64,000 nucleotides of DNA, taken from assembly GCA_011389865.1 (NCBI GenBank), contig JAABTL010000007.1, positions 1-64,000 on the forward strand. Direction: 5' to 3'. The first letter of the stretch is position 1. Every line of letters starts with the position of its first letter. A program made the position numbers and the translations under genes. Below are positions 1-13,429 of the stretch, piece after piece. The stretch comes from Trueperaceae bacterium (GTDB lineage: Bacteria; Deinococcota; Deinococci; Deinococcales; Trueperaceae). Below the pieces are notes generated by a model. That model did not search any database. It saw only the letters and a program-made list of their open reading frames with translations, and was not told the DNA's origin.

Positions 1-1820
1 AACAGCGCGCCCTGCTCACCCGTGCGCTCGGCCGCGACTACCGCCACCTCTCGCCGCAGCGGGCCAGGGAGGCCGCCCCCGTCTTCGACGAGGTCCTCGG
101 CGACGCGCCGGCCAAGGAGGCGCTGCTCGACCTGCTCACGCGCATGGAGCCACGCCACGCCCGTCATCTCGCGCCCCACAGTGGCGGGGTCGTCCTCGCA
201 CGCGACCCTCTCACGCACTACAGCCCCCTGCAACGCTCGAGCGGCGGGATCAAGCTGCTGCAACTCGACAAGGACGACGCCGAAGCCCTCGGCCTCATCA
301 AGCTCGATCTCCTCGGGCTGCGGATGCTCGCGGCCCTAGAGCGTGCCCGCGAGGAGGTCCTGCGCACGCAGGGCACATGGCTCGACCTCGATCGCCTTCC
401 CGACGATCCGCGCGTCTGGGACGTCATCGCCGCGGGCGCCACCATGGGCCTCTTCCAGATCGAGAGCCCCAGCCAGGTCAACACCGCCCGCGTCATGCGC
501 TCGCGCACCCTCAAGGACCTCGCCCACCAGATCGCCCTCATCCGGCCCGGCCCGATCCAGTCCGGCACCGTGCACCCGTACCTGCGCCGCCGCCAAGGCC
601 TCGAGCCGCTCAGCTACTGGCACCCCAGCCTCGAGCCCATCCTGGCCAAGTCCTACGGCGTCCTCCTCTTCCAGGAGGACGTCCTGCGCATCGCCGTGCA
701 CTTCGCCGGCATGAGCTGGATCGAGGCCGACCGCTTCCGCAAGCGGGTCTCCGGCTTCCGCGATCTCGCCGACATCGAACCCGATCGCCAGCACTTCGTG
801 GCGGGCGCGCAACGCACCCAGGGCGCCTCCGAGGCCGAGGCGAACACCGTGTTCGACGCCATCAAGGCCTACCAGGGCTACGGCTTCGCCGAATCGCACG
901 CCTGGGCGTTCGCCCTCCACGCCTACGCCTCGGCCTGGCTGCGCGTCCACCACCCCGCCGCCTACCTCGCGGCGATCCTCACGGAGGAACCGGGCATGTG
1001 GTCACCGTCGACCAAGCGACAGGAGGCGCGCGCGTGGGGCGTGCCCTTCCTGCCGATCGACCTCGACCGCTCGGGCGTCCACTACCGCGTCGAGCGCGCG
1101 GCCGACGGGCGTTGGGCGATCCGCCCGCCCCTCACCGCCGTCAAGCAGGTCTCGCTCGACCTGGCGCGAGCGGTCATGTGCGATCGCCTGGAGAACGGTC
1201 CCTACGCAAGCGCCCAGCAGGCGATGCGTCGCGTCGCGGCCCCCGTCGACACCTGGGAGGCGCTCGCCCGCGCGGGGGCCTTCGACGCCACCACCCCGCG
1301 ACGCGACGCGCTGTACCTGGCGCGTGCCGCCGCCGGGCCCCCCGCGCCGGCGGGTCAGGAGGGGCTCTTCGAACCGCCCGCCGACGTCCCCGCGTTCGAG
1401 CCGCTGACCGAGGGCGAGCGCTACGTCTGGGACCACGCGGTCGCGCGCTTCTCCAGCCTGGAGCTCCACGCGCTCGACCTCGTGCGGGATCAGCTGCACG
1501 AGCTGGGTGCCATAACGTTATGGCAGCTGCGCCGAGCCTCCCGCAAGAGCCGCCACCGCACCGCCGGCCTGGTCGTCGGCCGCCAACGGCCGGGCACGGC
1601 CAAGGGCTTCGCGTTCTTCGTCCTGGAGGACGGGCCCACCCGGGGGCAGCTGATCATCTCGCCGGACCTGTGGGAGCGCCACCGCATCATCCTGCGCGAC
1701 GCGTCGATCCTGATCGCCGACGTGGTGGTGGAGGACACCGGCTACCAGCTGTCGCTGCGGGCCGAGCGACTGTTCGCCCTGCCGGCGCCCGTCAACGTGC
1801 GGGGCTACCACTACGCGTGA
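1..1820 (+). CDS. dnaE2: Error-prone DNA polymerase III alpha subunit, DnaE2/ImuC type (5' truncated)
   Basis: Translesion C-family polymerase, normally working with ImuA/ImuB in damage-induced mutagenesis. The frame is open from base 3 to the TGA at 1818-1820, so about 605 C-terminal residues are visible and the PHP and catalytic palm parts are outside the window. Seen: GLFQIESPSQ, the RPGPIQSGTVHPY segment, GVLLFQEDVLR, a helix-hairpin-helix region around GYGFAESHAWAFALHAYASAWLR, and a C-terminal OB-fold segment (GFAFFVLEDGPTRGQLIISP). The short C-terminus without a tau-binding tail points to DnaE2 rather than replicative DnaE1. A perfect 18-bp palindrome (parS candidate) lies inside the coding region at 1508-1525 and imposes ATA and TTA codons (A-I-T-L-W), very rare in this GC-rich gene. 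No imuB is visible. Confidence 0.88.
   Translation, partial: QRALLTRALGRDYRHLSPQRAREAAPVFDEVLGDAPAKEALLDLLTRMEPRHARHLAPHSGGVVLARDPLTHYSPLQRSSGGIKLLQLDKDDAEALGLIKLDLLGLRMLAALERAREEVLRTQGTWLDLDRLPDDPRVWDVIAAGATMGLFQIESPSQVNTARVMRSRTLKDLAHQIALIRPGPIQSGTVHPYLRRRQGLEPLSYWHPSLEPILAKSYGVLLFQEDVLRIAVHFAGMSWIEADRFRKRVSGFRDLADIEPDRQHFVAGAQRTQGASEAEANTVFDAIKAYQGYGFAESHAWAFALHAYASAWLRVHHPAAYLAAILTEEPGMWSPSTKRQEARAWGVPFLPIDLDRSGVHYRVERAADGRWAIRPPLTAVKQVSLDLARAVMCDRLENGPYASAQQAMRRVAAPVDTWEALARAGAFDATTPRRDALYLARAAAGPPAPAGQEGLFEPPADVPAFEPLTEGERYVWDHAVARFSSLELHALDLVRDQLHELGAITLWQLRRASRKSRHRTAGLVVGRQRPGTAKGFAFFVLEDGPTRGQLIISPDLWERHRIILRDASILIADVVVEDTGYQLSLRAERLFALPAPVNVRGYHYA
1508..1525. other. Candidate parS site 1 (inside dnaE2)
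   Basis: Perfect palindrome TGCCATAACGTTATGGCA. The 16-bp core GCCATAACGTTATGGC recurs exactly at 2095-2110 and 7645-7660. ParB proteins bind such palindromes near their own operon; here the site is within an open reading frame. Assignment to ParB is inference from the repetition and the proximity to parAB. Confidence 0.7.
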
Positions 1821-2094: not shown

Positions 2095-2110
2095 GCCATA
2101 ACGTTATGGC
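2095..2110. other. Candidate parS site 2 (intergenic)
   Basis: Exact second copy of GCCATAACGTTATGGC, 586 bp from copy 1. The flanking bases do not extend the palindrome, so the 16-bp core is the conserved unit. Confidence 0.72.
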
Positions 2111-5725: not shown

Positions 5726-6679
5726 TCAGGCCTCTTCGAGCAGCTCGAGGAGCTCGTCCAGCAGCGACCCGACCCGCCTCAACCGCTCCTCGGGAAGCCG
5801 TACCAGCGAGCGCCGCTGCAGCAGCCGCCGGGCCGCGTGCAGGCGATCGAGCACCTCGTCGTCGAGGCGGCGGTCGACCTTGCGGTCCGCACGCGCCTCG
5901 GTGATGCGGCGCCGGATCTGGCTGAGGCTGAGGCGCTCGCGGGCCGCCTCCTCGAGGAGGCGGCGTCGGTCGACGGGGTCGTCGACCCGGGCCAGGGCCT
6001 GGGCCTTGGTGAAGTCGAGCCGGCCCTGGCGCACGGCCTCGAGCAGCTCGTCGGGGAAGCCGAGGATGGGGACGCGGTTGGCCAGGAACGACGCCGGCGT
6101 GAAGCGGCCGAGGCGTTCGAAGAGGCCCATCGCGACCCCCTTCTGGTCGGCCGAGAAGCGGGTCTGCGGCGCCCGCCCACGGCCCTCCTGCACGCACTCG
6201 TTGAGCAGCGCGAGCGCGCCCCCACGGTCGAGCTCGAGGCTCAACTCGAGCAGCTGCAGGACGGCCTCGGTCTCCTCGACGGCGTTGAGATCCTCGCGCT
6301 GGAGGTTCTCCATGATGGAGATCTCCAAGGCCTCGCGATCGTCGAGCTCGAGGACGATCGCCGGAACGTGGCTGAGGCCGGCCTCGCGGGCGGCGCGGGC
6401 GCGCCGCTCGCCGGCGATCAACTCGTAACCGGCGTCCACGCGGCGAACCAGGACGGGCTCCAGCACCCCGTGCTCGCGGACCGAGGCGGTCAGCGCTGCC
6501 AGCGCCACCGGGTCCATGAACTGGCGCGGCTGCCGCTCGGGGAAGACGATGTCGTCGAGCCGGATGCCGCCCTCGCCGGTTCCGGCCTGCGCCTCGGGCG
6601 CCGCCTGGCCCAGGTCGCCGAGGATCGCCTCGAACACCGCGGCCCGGTCGAGGTCGCCACGCCGCTTGCGGGCGCTCAT
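5726..6679 (-). CDS. parB: ParB-family centromere-binding partition protein
   Basis: 317-aa CTPase/DNA-binding protein that loads at parS and spreads along DNA to engage ParA. N-terminal ParB/Srx domain with RQPRQF, GERRARAAREAGL and ENLQREDLNAVEE (the three diagnostic boxes), followed by a helix-turn-helix domain (FLANRVPILGFPDELLEAVRQGRLDFTKAQALARV) and a charged Leu/Arg-rich C-terminal helix that probably dimerises. It is encoded downstream of parA with ATGA overlap (6676-6679). Its best binding-site candidates are the three GCCATAACGTTATGGC palindromes nearby. Confidence 0.93.
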   Translation of the reverse strand: MSARKRRGDLDRAAVFEAILGDLGQAAPEAQAGTGEGGIRLDDIVFPERQPRQFMDPVALAALTASVREHGVLEPVLVRRVDAGYELIAGERRARAAREAGLSHVPAIVLELDDREALEISIMENLQREDLNAVEETEAVLQLLELSLELDRGGALALLNECVQEGRGRAPQTRFSADQKGVAMGLFERLGRFTPASFLANRVPILGFPDELLEAVRQGRLDFTKAQALARVDDPVDRRRLLEEAARERLSLSQIRRRITEARADRKVDRRLDDEVLDRLHAARRLLQRRSLVRLPEERLRRVGSLLDELLELLEEA

Positions 6680-7485
6680 GCGTCCATCCCCAGCGCCGCG
6701 AGGAGCTCCTGCGTCACCTTGCGCACCTCACGGTCCGCCTCGCTCCCCGGGGCGTACAGCGGGATCGGGAGACCCTCCACCTGCGCGTCGCTGTAGATCG
6801 CGGGGCGGCTGGCCAGTGGCGAGGAGATCGGCGCCACGGCCGGCAGCTGGGCGGCGATGATCTCGTGGCTCTCCCGGTCGTGTCGCGTCCGGCGGTCGTG
6901 CTGCGTCAACACGAAGAGCGCGATGTCGAGGTCGCGGGCCGCCTTCTTGTACTCGCGGACCATCTTGACGACGGTCGGGATCCCGTCGAGGCCCTTGCGG
7001 TTGGTGGGCAGCGGGACGACCACGCGGTCCGAGGCGACGACCGCGAGCGCCGACAGCTGGCCGAGGCTGGGCGGCGGGTCGATCAGCACGAAGTCATAAC
7101 CGTGCAGCCGGCGGACGGCGTCGCGGAGCCGCAGCACGCCGAGGAAGACGGTGAGGATCTCGCGCTCGATGATCGCGATGTTGAGGTGCGCAGGGATGAG
7201 GTCCATCCCGTGGACCTGCAGCGGTGAGGGCAGGCGGAGGTCGGGCTCGTCGCCGTTGGCGACCTCGGCCGTACCGTCCCCGGGCTCGCCGAGGATCGCG
7301 GGGTAGACGGTCCGGTCCAGGTCGACGTCCTCGTCGACGCCGAGCCACTTGGTCAGGTTCGCCTGGGGGTCCATGTCGATCAGCAGCACGCGGCGGCCGC
7401 CCTCGGCCAACACGTAACCCACGTCGCGCACCGTGCTCGTCTTGGCGACGCCGCCGGCGTGGTTGAAGAAGGTGAGCACCATCAT
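6676..7485 (-). CDS. parA: ParA-family partition ATPase with divergent Walker A
   Basis: 269-aa ATPase that binds nucleoid DNA and moves ParB-parS complexes. The P-loop region reads NHAGGVAKTS (residues 8-17) where the canonical deviant Walker A is KGGVGKT; the signature lysine before GG is Ala10 and a glycine is Ala14, while the catalytic-loop Lys15 is kept. VLLIDMDPQANLTKWLG and FVLIDPPPSLGQLSALAV are normal Walker A'/B segments. There is no N-terminal DNA-binding extension, so autoregulation would depend on ParB. Start chosen at ATG 7485 (MMVLTF); GTG 7509 is an alternative. A TATGAT -10 lies at 7539-7544. Confidence 0.9.
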   Translation of the reverse strand: MMVLTFFNHAGGVAKTSTVRDVGYVLAEGGRRVLLIDMDPQANLTKWLGVDEDVDLDRTVYPAILGEPGDGTAEVANGDEPDLRLPSPLQVHGMDLIPAHLNIAIIEREILTVFLGVLRLRDAVRRLHGYDFVLIDPPPSLGQLSALAVVASDRVVVPLPTNRKGLDGIPTVVKMVREYKKAARDLDIALFVLTQHDRRTRHDRESHEIIAAQLPAVAPISSPLASRPAIYSDAQVEGLPIPLYAPGSEADREVRKVTQELLAALGMDA

Positions 7486-7538
7486 GGATCCGACCCCCGC
7501 GTGGCGCACCCGAACGACCCGGCCTCCACGGTGCGCGC

Positions 7539-7544
7539 ATCATA
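7539..7544 (-). promoter_or_regulatory. Probable -10 box of parA-parB
   Basis: TATGAT on the minus strand, a near-consensus hexamer 53 nt upstream of ATG 7485. No good -35 box seen. parS 3 lies about 100 bp further upstream, within range for ParB-mediated control. Confidence 0.5.
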
Positions 7545-7641
7545 CCCGGCACACGCGCGCGGCCGCTCGGCCGCGGCCCGGCGAGCGCGTTCGCTCGCTC
7601 CGACCCACTGCAGGACGCGCTCGCAACGGCCGGTCGGCCCC

Positions 7642-7663
7642 GGCGCCATAACGTTATGGCGCC
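7642..7663. other. Candidate parS site 3 (origin)
   Basis: Third copy of GCCATAACGTTATGGC (7645-7660), here extended by GGC/GCC flanks to a perfect 22-bp palindrome. It sits between parA and rep, the usual place for a plasmid centromere. Confidence 0.78.
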
Positions 7664-7943
7664 CGTCGCCCCCATCGACGGGGCCCGGTTCCTCGATTGT
7701 CCCACTTCGCGGCGCCGAGGCCTCCTCGCCGGCGCCCCGAGTCCCTCGTCTGTCCCACTTCGGATCGTCGCGCGTCCGCAACCAGGTCCCCCCGGCAAGG
7801 GCCGTGCTGCACGCGCATCTCGCGCGCATCCGCAGCCCACGCGCTGGCGCCGACGGGCCGCCGCCGTCCACGCCGGCGGTCGCGACCGGGGCCGAGCCGG
7901 GCGTGCGCCCCCCGGGATCGCATCGGCGCGCACGCAGCGAAGC

Positions 7944-7960
7944 GGGAACGATGGGGGACC
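7944..7960 (+). repeat. Isolated iteron-like unit
   Basis: GGGAACGATGGGGGACC: two G-tract/A motifs 11 bp apart, the same layout as the tandem array at 8518-8647. It is also flanked by an 8-bp inverted repeat AACGATGG/CCATCGTT (7947-7972). Confidence 0.5.
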
Positions 7961-8085
7961 GCGGCCATCGTTGAGCCGGTCGCGCGCGCGCAGATTTCTG
8001 CGTTCCCAACGGGCTCTCTACGCACGAGCCGTCGTCATCGCGCCACGCGCGAACCGCGCAACGGCGGGCCCCGCCGGCCCATGGT

Positions 8086-8137
8086 GGGAATCCTGGGGGA
8101 CTCGATGTCGGCGCCAGCGGGTCCCTCAGGTTTCCCG
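8086..8137. repeat. Inverted pair of iteron-like units
   Basis: GGGAATCCTGGGGGAC on the plus strand (8086-8101) faces GGGAAACCTGAGGGACC on the minus strand (8137-8121). Both have G-tracts 11 bp apart as in the tandem array; such inverted iterons are often operator or handcuffing sites. Confidence 0.5.
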
Positions 8138-8292
8138 CTTCGTGGCGTACTGGTAGGCGCGGGGGACCCGCAGGCGGGGCGGGGCGAACCCGGGTGGCGC
8201 GCCGCCCCGCCGACTGGCGTCGCGCGTGCTCGGCGTACGATCGTGCGGCCACGCGGTCGTGGCGGGAAACCGGCGGTACCGCAGCCGCGAAC

Positions 8293-8309
8293 GGGGAGGG
8301 AGAGGGACC
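8293..8309 (+). repeat. Isolated iteron-like unit
   Basis: GGGGAGGGAGAGGGACC, with the two GGGA motifs 10 bp apart, matches the half-site order of the tandem array. Confidence 0.4.
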
Positions 8310-8395
8310 CGCTGGTGGTGCTTCTGGCTCCTTGGCGTACCGGCGATGTGCGGCGCACGGGCGGTGGTCGCCTGGGGCGATCGTGATGGACGCAG

Positions 8396-8432
8396 CAACA
8401 GCTGGCCGGCCGTGGCCGGCCAGCCTTTGTTG
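8396..8432 (+). terminator. Large hairpin beside the AT-rich patch
   Basis: GCTGGCCGGC (8401-8410) and GCCGGCCAGC (8415-8424) form a perfect 10-bp stem with a 4-nt loop. An outer CAACA/TGTTG pair (8396-8400, 8428-8432) extends it. The CTTTGTT run on the 3' side makes it look like a plus-strand intrinsic terminator, but no gene lies upstream. It could equally end an antisense or countertranscript RNA or act as a cruciform in the origin. Confidence 0.55.
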
Positions 8433-8470
8433 GGTGTCTTTCTCAGTTCTTCCTTTATCATTCCCATTAG
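8425..8470. other. AT-rich patch, possible DNA unwinding element
   Basis: 28 of 46 bases are A or T in a window that is otherwise about 28% AT; pyrimidine-rich on the plus strand. It lies between the hairpin and the tandem iterons, the expected location for melting by an iteron-binding initiator. No DnaA box was recognised. Confidence 0.5.
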
Positions 8471-8517
8471 GCAGGGTGCGTCGATGCCGAGCAGGACGGC
8501 ACCCGGGCGTTCGTGGT

Positions 8518-8647
8518 GGGGAGCCCGCGGGACCGCCGCGGGAGGCGAGCGGGACCGTCGGGGGACGCGCGGGGGACCCCGGTGGGGAACCTCGGGGACC
8601 ATGTGGGGAAGGCGGGGGACGGAAACGGGGAAAATGGGGGACCCCAG
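8518..8647 (+). repeat. Tandem iteron array (six 21-23 bp units)
   Basis: Units at 8518-8539, 8540-8560, 8561-8583, 8584-8604, 8605-8626 and 8627-8647. Each holds two half-sites, GGG(G)A[A/G/C] then GGG(G)AC, about 11 bp apart. The A following each G-tract falls at 8522, 8532, 8543, 8554, 8565, 8576, 8588, 8598, 8609, 8619, 8631 and 8641, a mean spacing of 10.8 bp, so all face one side of the helix. Unit length matches iterons of Rep_3 plasmids, and the adjacent gene encodes such an initiator. Confidence 0.8.
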
Positions 8648-8677
8648 TTCCCCGCATCGCGTGCCATGTGGTGAACA

Positions 8678-8707
8678 TTGACACACCGTTCCCCACACGC
8701 GTATGGT
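8678..8707 (+). promoter_or_regulatory. Promoter of rep
   Basis: TTGACA (8678-8683), 18-bp spacer, TATGGT (8702-8707). An inverted iteron half-site (GTTCCCC, 8688-8694) lies between the boxes and another (AGTTCCCC, 8646-8653) just upstream, which suggests autorepression by Rep. Confidence 0.72.
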
Positions 8708-8731
8708 TCCATGATCGCCGTGAGGGGGACG

Positions 8732-10303
8732 ATGGAACGCGAACCGGTGCATGCAGACGGGGCCTCGCCGCCCGCCTCGGGAGCCGACCCGGCCGTCGAC
8801 CCGGGCGACGTCCGCCCGCCAGCAGTCGGCGGCGGCGGTACCGGTGGTCGCGCGCGCCCGGGGCACTCGAAGACGGGCCGTTCCGGACCGAAGTCCGCGG
8901 CGAAGGCGGCGGCACGCCGCGGCATCGAGCGCCGCACGGGTGGCCGCGTCGCCGTCACCCAGGCCAACCCGCTCGCGCTGTCGCGCCAGGAGATGGGACT
9001 CCTGACCAAGCGCCTGCTGGTGCTGGCGCTCTCCGACATCACCCGCGACGACCACGACCTCGAACCGATCCGCATCACCGCCTGGGAGTACGCCCAGATC
9101 TTCAACATCCGCGGCAAGAGCATCTACAACCGCATCGAGGATTCGGCTCGCGAGCTCCTCGAGCAGACCGTCCAGGTCAAGGAGCCCAACGGCGACTGGA
9201 TCATGTTCCAGTGGGTCAGTGAGGCCCGCTACGACAGCGGGCGCGACAGCAAGGACAAGCTGGCCTGCATCGAGCTCAGGATCCACGACAAGCTCCGGCC
9301 GTACCTGCTGCAGCTGCGGCGCGACTTCAGCATCATCCCGACCGACCAGCTGCTCAGCTTCGAGTCGTTCAACAGCATGCGGCTCTTCGAGGTGCTCTAC
9401 ACCGCGAGCTACGGCGGCGAGAAGCACCACCTCGAGTTCGACGTCGACGACCTCAAGCTCCGCCTCGGCCTCGACGGGAAGTACGAGCGCTTCAAGGACT
9501 TCACCTACGTCCTCGACCGGGCCCGCGACGAGTTCTCGCGCTACACCTCGCTGACGTTCACCTACGAGGGCCGCAAGGTGGGGCGCAAGTACCAGCACGT
9601 CTCGATCCTCATCGAGAAGAACGACGTCTTCCAGCCGCGCGTGCGGCTGCCCGAGAGCATCGCGCGGCGGGTGAAGCGCGAGGGCGACGGCGAGGCGAAG
9701 CTGCGCGCCCTGCAGGCGGCCGACGACCTGCGCGAGATCGGCTGGGCGCTGGACCCCGACGCCAGCGTCAAGCAGTACGGCCCGCAGCGTGTCATCGACG
9801 TCGTGCGCTACGCCCGCACGCTGCAGCGCAAGGCGGAGCAGGCGGGCCGACCGATCGCCAACCTGGCCGGCTTCGTCCACAGCCTGCTGCAGCAGGGCAT
9901 CGAGCCGCCGCGGGGCGAGGCGAACGAGGCCGCCGACGCGCGGCTCACCCGCGAGGCGCTGCGCGGGATCGTCGCGGGGCTGCAGGAGTCGTTCCACCAG
10001 CAGCGCCGCGAGCGCGGGCGGTCCGCGTGGGAGGCGATGAGCGAGGACCAGCGGCAGCTGGTGCACACGCTGATGCAGGCGACGCTGCACAAGTTCACGC
10101 TCGAGCGCATCGAGCGCGATGGCTGGCAGGGGAGCCTCTACGAACTGAGCCGCCTGGACGTGCTCGCCGCCCACGGCTTCGCGAGCCTGCCACCGCAGTT
10201 GCAGGACGTCGTCGCGTTCGTCGACCACGGCGACCTGCTCGCGGAGTACCTGCCCGACGACCGGCGGCGGCTGCTGGACGAGTTGCGCGAGGCGGCCGGC
10301 TGA
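8732..10303 (+). CDS. rep: Replication initiator protein, Rep_3 family
   Basis: Iteron-binding initiator of plasmid-type replication; 523 aa. After a disordered Gly/Pro/Arg-rich tail (1-72) comes the Rep_3 core (about 75-300): VTQANPLALSRQEMGLL, first winged helix with WEYAQIFNI and SIYNRIEDSARELLE, then FNSMRLFEVLYTASY and the second winged helix DVDDLKLRLGLDGKYERFKDF. An extra, mostly helical C-terminal region (300-523) is longer than in small plasmid Reps and may contact other replisome parts. Start chosen at ATG 8732 behind AGGGGG and downstream of the TTGACA/TATGGT promoter; upstream TTG 8678 would place the promoter in the coding region. Divergent from parAB. Confidence 0.88.
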   Translation: MEREPVHADGASPPASGADPAVDPGDVRPPAVGGGGTGGRARPGHSKTGRSGPKSAAKAAARRGIERRTGGRVAVTQANPLALSRQEMGLLTKRLLVLALSDITRDDHDLEPIRITAWEYAQIFNIRGKSIYNRIEDSARELLEQTVQVKEPNGDWIMFQWVSEARYDSGRDSKDKLACIELRIHDKLRPYLLQLRRDFSIIPTDQLLSFESFNSMRLFEVLYTASYGGEKHHLEFDVDDLKLRLGLDGKYERFKDFTYVLDRARDEFSRYTSLTFTYEGRKVGRKYQHVSILIEKNDVFQPRVRLPESIARRVKREGDGEAKLRALQAADDLREIGWALDPDASVKQYGPQRVIDVVRYARTLQRKAEQAGRPIANLAGFVHSLLQQGIEPPRGEANEAADARLTREALRGIVAGLQESFHQQRRERGRSAWEAMSEDQRQLVHTLMQATLHKFTLERIERDGWQGSLYELSRLDVLAAHGFASLPPQLQDVVAFVDHGDLLAEYLPDDRRRLLDELREAAG

Positions 10304-10334
10304 TGCATCCGCTGCGCCGTTGGGGGGCGTGACC

Positions 10335-10991
10335 GTGTGCGGTCGCTACACCCTCTACCACGACGAGCAGGACCTGACCGAGCTCTTCGAGCTCGACGCC
10401 TTCGCGTGGGCCCCGCGCTACAACATCGCGCCGACGCAGACGGTGCCGATCGTCCGCCAGGGCCGCGACGGCCGCGAGCGGCTCGATGCCCGCTGGGGGT
10501 TGGTGCCCGCCTGGGTCAAGGAGCCGGGCACCTTCAAGGCCCTGCTGTTCAACGCCCGCAGCGAGACCGTGGGGGAGAAGCCGTCCTTCCGCGACGCGGC
10601 GCGATCGGCGCGCTGCGTCGTCCCCGCCAGCGGCTTCTACGAGTGGCGCGCCGAGGACGGCGGCAAGCGGCCGTACTACGTCCACCGGCGCGACGGCGCC
10701 CCGATGGCCCTCGCCGGGCTCTACGCCGAGCGCCCGCGCGGCGAACCGGCCCGCAGCGCCACCATCCTCACCACCGAGCCCAACGAGCTGATGGCGACGC
10801 TGCACGACCGCATGCCCGTGGTCCTCGAGGCGGACGCCTTCGCCCGTTGGCTCGACCCCGACACCCGCGACGTCGGCGAGCTCGCGGACCTGCTGCGGCC
10901 GGTCGCCAGCGAGCTGCTCGAGGCGTATCCGGTCGACCGCGCCGTCGGTGACGCGCGCCTCGACGAGGCGCGGCTGATCCAGCGGGTCTGA
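10335..10991 (+). CDS. yedK: SRAP/YedK-type abasic-site processing protein (HMCES family)
   Basis: Shields abasic sites in single-stranded DNA by a thiazolidine crosslink through Cys2. Because that cysteine must follow the initiator, the start is GTG 10335 (GTG TGC GGT, M-C-G-R-Y), not the earlier in-frame TTG. The 218-aa product has YNIAPTQTVPIVR, RWGLVPAW, NARSET, the catalytic Glu in SGFYEW and the His in TLHDRMPV. It lies 31 bp after rep on the same strand and may be co-transcribed; a strong hairpin follows. The position between rep and ligA fits a replication/repair role. Confidence 0.92.
   Translation: MCGRYTLYHDEQDLTELFELDAFAWAPRYNIAPTQTVPIVRQGRDGRERLDARWGLVPAWVKEPGTFKALLFNARSETVGEKPSFRDAARSARCVVPASGFYEWRAEDGGKRPYYVHRRDGAPMALAGLYAERPRGEPARSATILTTEPNELMATLHDRMPVVLEADAFARWLDPDTRDVGELADLLRPVASELLEAYPVDRAVGDARLDEARLIQRV

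Positions 10992-11139: not shown

Positions 11140-13429
<2,290 letters not shown>

Follow-up and report, generated by a model that had tools for sequence, protein, structure and literature searches.

A putative Rep_3 iteron origin with a divergent parAB locus in Trueperaceae, most likely belonging to a chromid

A regularly spaced array of G-rich repeats lies directly in front of a plasmid-type initiator gene in a Trueperaceae bacterium. Is this array a replication origin, and if so, does it serve a second replicon? The window analysed here is a stretch of 64,000 nucleotides (GenBank assembly GCA_011389865.1, contig JAABTL010000007.1, positions 1 to 64,000). It is part of a 97.8 kb contig (C65) in a 3.05 Mb assembly that is 97% complete. 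From sequence comparison, the locus is quite probably where replication of a secondary replicon of the iteron type starts, and this replicon is most likely a chromid. The features on which the argument is built are as follows.

1509..1524, no strand: parS-like palindrome GCCATAACGTTATGGC, third copy
2095..2110, no strand: parS-like palindrome GCCATAACGTTATGGC, second copy
5726..6679, minus: parB (ParB_N and HTH_ParB by Pfam)
6676..7485, minus: parA (AAA_31 by Pfam), divergent from rep, with 30% identity to the dnaA-linked parA
7645..7660, no strand: parS-like palindrome GCCATAACGTTATGGC, upstream of parA
7741..7756, minus: inverted auxiliary iteron near parA (pattern match), with a degenerate copy at 7688-7709
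7944..7959, plus: auxiliary iteron (pattern match)
8086-8101, plus, and 8121-8136, minus: auxiliary iterons (pattern match)
8264-8279 and 8294-8308, plus: two auxiliary iterons 30 bp apart (pattern match)
8389..8438, plus: hairpin beside the AT-rich stretch, core stem 8401-8424 (fold and terminator scan)
8430..8469, no strand: AT-rich stretch TTGGGTGTCTTTCTCAGTTCTTCCTTTATCATTCCCATTA, 62% A+T, candidate unwinding element
8518..8641, plus: tandem iteron array, six bipartite units of 21-23 bp, GGG(G)A[R/A]-N-GGG(G)GAC(C) (shuffles; kept 5' of rep in relatives)
8670..8694, no strand: inverted half-site operator GGTGAAC-N11-GTTCCCC over the rep -35 box, candidate autorepression site
8678..8707, plus: rep promoter TTGACA-N18-TATGGT, sigma-70-like with 10/12 matches
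8732..10303, plus: rep, Rep_3 initiator of 523 aa, ATG 8732 after AGGGGGA
10320-10991: SRAP (SOS-associated peptidase) gene, directly after rep
11336..13429, plus: ligA, the only NAD+-dependent DNA ligase gene found in the genome

The iteron array and the region in front of rep

Twelve runs of three or more G followed by A end at positions 8522, 8532, 8543, 8554, 8565, 8576, 8588, 8598, 8609, 8619, 8631, and 8641. Their successive spacings are 10, 11, 11, 11, 11, 12, 10, 11, 10, 12, and 10 bp. Direct listing thus reproduced the original prediction of twelve half-sites in steps of 10-12 bp (mean 10.8 bp) that group into six units of 21-23 bp. The half-sites (G3-5A) are real, but the basic unit was refined to the bipartite iteron of 21-23 bp formed by their pairing rather than the half-site of 10.8 bp. 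When the same 161 bp were shuffled 5000 times with dinucleotides preserved, the longest chain of 10-12 bp steps averaged 1.3 and never exceeded 4, against 12 in the real sequence, and the array is the sole chain above 4 in the 97.8 kb contig with both strands scanned. The bipartite pattern GGGA-N5-7-GG[G/T]AC was found at 13 sites of the parA-rep intergenic region, seven within the array and six outside it, whereas the shuffles gave a mean of 0.14 and a maximum of 2. A loose form of the iteron pattern has five matches in the remaining 96 kb of the contig. The motif was defined post hoc, after inspection of these same sequences, and therefore the weight rests on the shuffles and not on the fit to the motif. 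Tandem direct repeats of about 19-22 bp adjoining rep are characteristic of a Rep_3 iteron origin, and the array has this form. On both strands the array is spanned by long open reading frames, which are expected at 74% GC and were not counted as genes.

Extra units had also been claimed outside the array, at 7944 (+), 8086 (+), 8121 (-), and 8293 (+). A pattern search bore these out, the last one being placed at 8294. It also found sites that had been missed, at 8264 (+, GGGAAACCGGCGGTACC) and 7741 (-), and the degenerate copy at 7688-7709 (-). Against the six sites observed outside the array, shuffling gave a mean of 0.08 and a maximum of 2, and none of 2000 shuffles reached six. Many relatives have an iteron pair like that at 8264 and 8294, with a spacing of 29-41 bp, and many have two minus-strand sites at positions comparable to 7741 and 7688-7709.

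The AT-rich stretch at 8430-8469 stands in a contig with a mean of 26% A+T, and none of the sampled 40-bp windows was as AT-rich. An AT maximum lies just 5' of the array in all of the 15 close orthologues, and its ATTCYCWTTWATG-like core is kept. By composition and position, this stretch is a candidate for the unwinding region that adjoins the iterons of such origins. The hairpin beside it (DNA fold of -20 kcal/mol, z -4.9) looked terminator-like in the scan and is clear in some relatives only. No DnaA box with one mismatch or fewer to TTATCCACA was found in the ori region; only two-mismatch matches appeared, and the consensus may not be that of this lineage. A box resembling C[T/A]GGACG was seen at 8482-8505, between the AT-rich stretch and the array. 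Most relatives share it, and it also appears close to the distant rep gene of genome G021.

The promoter at 8678-8707 is the only sigma-70-like site in 7480-8740 (shuffle mean 0.0). The ATG at 8732 is the most likely start of rep because the upstream TTG at 8678 is the -35 box of this promoter, the only good one of the region; the start region is kept in genome G002. The inverted operator arms GGGGAA/TTCCCC are present in relatives, and outside this genus they are more complete. In G034 they form a perfect 7/7 repeat (GGGGAAC/GTTCCCC), and in G003 both arms are altered together (GGTGAAG/CTTCCCC). RepE is known to bind inverted repeats at its own promoter, which results in autoregulation (PMC13028717). 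Given this precedent and the half-sites around the -35 box of rep, autorepression naturally suggests itself, and the inverted half-iterons are a candidate site for it.

Rep, its orthologues and the probable partition site

Rep was matched by Rep3_N (3.9e-23) and Rep3_C (8.5e-9) of Pfam, and a PDB profile search with the family profile hit the solved RepE structure (E 2.3e-14). Rep thus carries the WH1 and WH2 domains of a Rep_3 initiator. Matches listed from the plasmid collection share roughly 22-27% identity with it, and a class-wide search gave no match in any genome outside Trueperaceae. An AlphaFold2 model from a four-sequence alignment (mean pLDDT 50, pTM 0.26) was not relied on. Residues 311-523 make up a conserved C-terminal extension of about 210 residues past WH1-WH2 and have no Pfam match.

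Close rep orthologues with 63-97% identity occur in the genera g1, g8, g12, and g16. The repeats were expected to be conserved 5' of orthologous rep genes if they act as iterons, and this was found in 14 other Trueperaceae genomes. Each of them has 7-15 bipartite sites in front of rep, against shuffle maxima of 1-3, and the shared unit is GGGGA-N5-7-GG[G/T]AC. The common layout is a tandem cluster near rep and, 300-900 bp upstream, a dispersed one; the two sites closest to parA are on the minus strand in most relatives. The N-terminal tail of rep and the intergenic spacers diverge, whereas the half-sites and their spacing are retained; the region is therefore not merely unmutated. The second half-site is usually GGGGACC or GGGACC in g1, mostly GGTACC in g8 and g12, and of both kinds in g16. 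This variation among the genera indicates that the invariant parts are GGGA and GG[G/T]AC and not the G-runs. The G-run motif of the original prediction is thus present here but is not general, as GGTACC stands in the second half of many relatives. As a side observation, residue 133 of Rep is N in g1 and S in the other genera, and residue 281 is R in g1 but differs outside it. This split parallels that of GGGGACC and GGTACC iterons; with so few clades it is a lead only.

The palindrome GCCATAACGTTATGGC is a perfect one of 16 bp. It has exactly three copies in the 3.05 Mb genome, all on contig C65 in the vicinity of the origin, and it was found in 15 of 37 Trueperaceae genomes with one to three copies each, restricted to genomes with the rep/par locus. 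A reversed control pattern gave 0 matches. The copies are mostly on contigs that bear orthologous rep or rep-linked parA. Some copies in G002 and G029 are on other contigs (G002:C277, which also has the bcp of the locus, and G029:C394). The palindrome is absent from two fragmented rep-bearing assemblies, G001, where the contig begins inside rep, and G034. Considering this distribution, GCCATAACGTTATGGC is very probably parS. The locus thus holds the parts of a ParABS system, namely parA and parB with a replicon-specific palindrome nearby.

In G020, a more distant rep gene (36% identity) comes with a separate array, in which a 21-bp unit, GGGA-N9-GGGTC, is repeated 7.7 times (positions 9277-9440 of locus L051). 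Neither a rep-linked parA nor the palindrome was found in this genome. The array thus goes with rep rather than with par. An unrelated-looking repeat, CTGTAAGTTTAGGCGGTA with its variants, was seen 5' of distant Rep_3 genes in two genomes of genus g2 (L052 and L053; G005 and G021).

These observations bear on two other readings of the repeats. They could be mainly a ParB-binding centromere, like cisII/cisMP of Deinococcus radiodurans, instead of Rep iterons. The repeats 5' of parAB in D. radiodurans bind ParB and DnaA (PMC7671480), and the array here likewise lies between parAB and rep. However, the separate perfect palindrome confined to the rep/par locus is the better parS candidate, the array adjoins rep with its half-site reused in the rep promoter, and a GGGA-type array is retained with rep in G020 although this parAB is lacking. 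A centromere role for the array is therefore very unlikely. Even less credible is selection of the G-runs as G-quadruplex or bend-forming DNA. Twelve runs of three or more G with short spacers on one strand, in helical phase, would suit such a structure, but the second half in g8, g12, and g16 is often GGTACC with two Gs only, some of the sites are inverted, and an inverted repeat of the half-site recurs at the promoter. The prediction of an iteron origin beside a Rep_3 gene is supported by the conservation of the array, the AT-rich stretch, the operator and promoter, the divergent parAB, the Rep3_N and Rep3_C domains, and the relationship to RepE.

Housekeeping genes and the question of a second replicon

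A further alternative concerns the replicon and not the repeats. The Rep_3 iteron origin could be integrated in the main chromosome and perhaps be silent, giving two origins on one chromosome. Housekeeping genes on the flanks speak for it. Contig C65 is also not closed, as its ends do not overlap; the separateness of the replicon in the genome of the window thus rests on the relatives. The GC skew of the contig is weak (minimum at 24 kb, maximum at 77 kb) with no switch at the array, and the location of rRNA was uninformative since nearly all genomes, several controls included, gave no match. In G020, the homologous rep lies within the main contig of 4.29 Mb, which means that integration occurs in Trueperaceae. 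This distant rep is beside bcp and about 190 kb from dnaA, and it is possibly an integrated or fused replicon.

On the other hand, the order dnaE2-bcp-parB-parA-ori-rep-SRAP is shared by g1, g12, g16, and part of g8, where the SRAP gene after rep is retained, and several of these loci have ligA and polX downstream. The closed single-contig genome of G011 (genus g8, 2.9 Mb, 98% complete) was searched and found to be without rep, rep-linked parA, bcp, and any NAD+ DNA ligase. A 20 kb segment of the rep contig of G023 (G023:C14, L056) aligns at length (about 70-84%) with four other g8 genomes, whereas only short paralogous matches were obtained against G011. As a control, a 17 kb segment surrounding dnaA gave extended matches of 74-87% in G011. 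Most simply, the G011 assembly would represent the main chromosome alone, and the missing genes, including ligA, would be on a second replicon. This argument from gene absence comes from one closed genome, and deletion or loss in assembly or binning could also account for it. No NAD+ ligase was found in G031 and G008 either, both of which are draft assemblies; all of these ligase absences concern the NAD+-dependent type. Integration would have to explain the simultaneous absence from G011 of rep, parA, bcp, LigA, and 20 kb of the sister contig. The array, the operator, the AT-rich stretch, and parS are also retained across genera, which indicates that the origin is not decaying. An integrated origin is accordingly judged unlikely, and by extension from the relatives the replicon is probably a physically separate one in the genome of the window too.

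A chromid has a published definition (PMC12456017), and the locus fits it as far as its sequence can tell. Core genes that relatives keep on their chromosome are present, since the closed genome G017 has ligA and bcp in its main chromosome, whereas on contig C65 they are beside rep. The replication and partition genes are of plasmid type. The composition is near that of the main chromosome, with a GC content of 73.8% for the rep contig versus 71.1% for the dnaA contig and a dinucleotide distance to the main chromosome of 31 versus 29 within the contig, both from one 20 kb sample of the main chromosome. A chromosome without DnaA was also considered and rejected; contig C15 carries a DnaA gene together with another ParA (30% identity).

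Proposed mechanism, known relatives and meaning

The following scheme is modelled on the F plasmid and on chromosome 2 (Chr2) of Vibrio cholerae. A Rep_3 monomer would sit on each of the six tandem 22-bp iterons, its WH1 and WH2 entering successive major grooves on one helix face. One monomer per 22-bp unit in this arrangement would explain the 11-bp phasing of the half-sites. Assembly of Rep on the six units would then melt the AT-rich stretch at 8430-8469 and allow helicase loading. Rep dimers on the inverted half-sites over the -35 box may repress rep, and the dispersed upstream iterons may titrate or handcuff Rep and thereby limit the copy number. The divergent ParAB would segregate the replicon, with ParB binding the three copies of GCCATAACGTTATGGC to secure inheritance. 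The whole scheme, from Rep binding and origin activity to melting, autorepression, copy control, and ParB binding, is an inference by analogy; what the comparison shows directly is the sequences with their conservation and co-occurrence, the gene order, and the lack of the replicon's genes in the chromosome of one closed relative.

The oriS/RepE/incC region of the F plasmid is similar in its Rep_3 initiator with two winged helices, its iterons by an AT-rich stretch with rep downstream, its inverted-repeat operator at the rep promoter, and its second iteron cluster (PMC13028717). However, the iteron sequence here is unrelated and there are six plus about seven sites. The second cluster is dispersed upstream on both strands instead of downstream of rep, Rep has a long C-terminal extension, and clear DnaA boxes are lacking. 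The ori2/RctB system of V. cholerae Chr2 also has iterons on a secondary chromosome, a minimal array accompanied by an auxiliary cluster with a regulatory role, an initiator promoter with an autorepression site, and a specific parS nearby (PMC6090056). The likeness drawn here is one of layout; no counterpart of the 39-mers and crtS was assigned here, and V. cholerae belongs to Gammaproteobacteria whereas the present locus is from Deinococcota. D. radiodurans, of the same phylum, has a secondary replicon with iterons beside parAB, but these are unrelated repeats of 18 bp (and 14 bp), and the authors recognised no initiator gene there (PMC7671480). The megaplasmid parABSm of Thermus thermophilus is another dedicated parABS near the origin of a secondary replicon. 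Its parS, AAGGACGCGTCCTT, is inside parB (PMC10085754), whereas GCCATAACGTTATGGC is outside parB.

The type of system, a Rep_3 iteron origin with ParABS, is already known, and the interesting part is a chromid carrying the sole ligase. According to a 2018 review, chromids of the iteron type occur in Beta- and Gammaproteobacteria (PMC6090056). Open-licence full texts yielded no description of a chromid from Trueperaceae, and the iteron, the operator, and the palindrome matched no described system in the open-licence literature. We consider it reasonably likely that a second chromosome with a Rep_3/GGGGA-N-GG[G/T]ACC origin, a GCCATAACGTTATGGC centromere, and the sole NAD+ ligase is vertically inherited in several Trueperaceae genera, and that the specificity of its initiator has split into GGGGACC and GGTACC clades.

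The locus offers a fully mapped origin and centromere module, with iterons, AT-rich stretch, operator, and parS, for a little-studied family of Deinococcota. Its two diagnostic sequences, the iteron and the palindrome, can be used to sort contigs of secondary replicons from metagenome bins. The locus argues for multipartite genomes within Trueperaceae. If this is true, the replicon would be an independent iteron chromid in Deinococcota. Replication of a second chromosome with the sole ligase would be essential, and how it is coordinated with the main chromosome would become testable.
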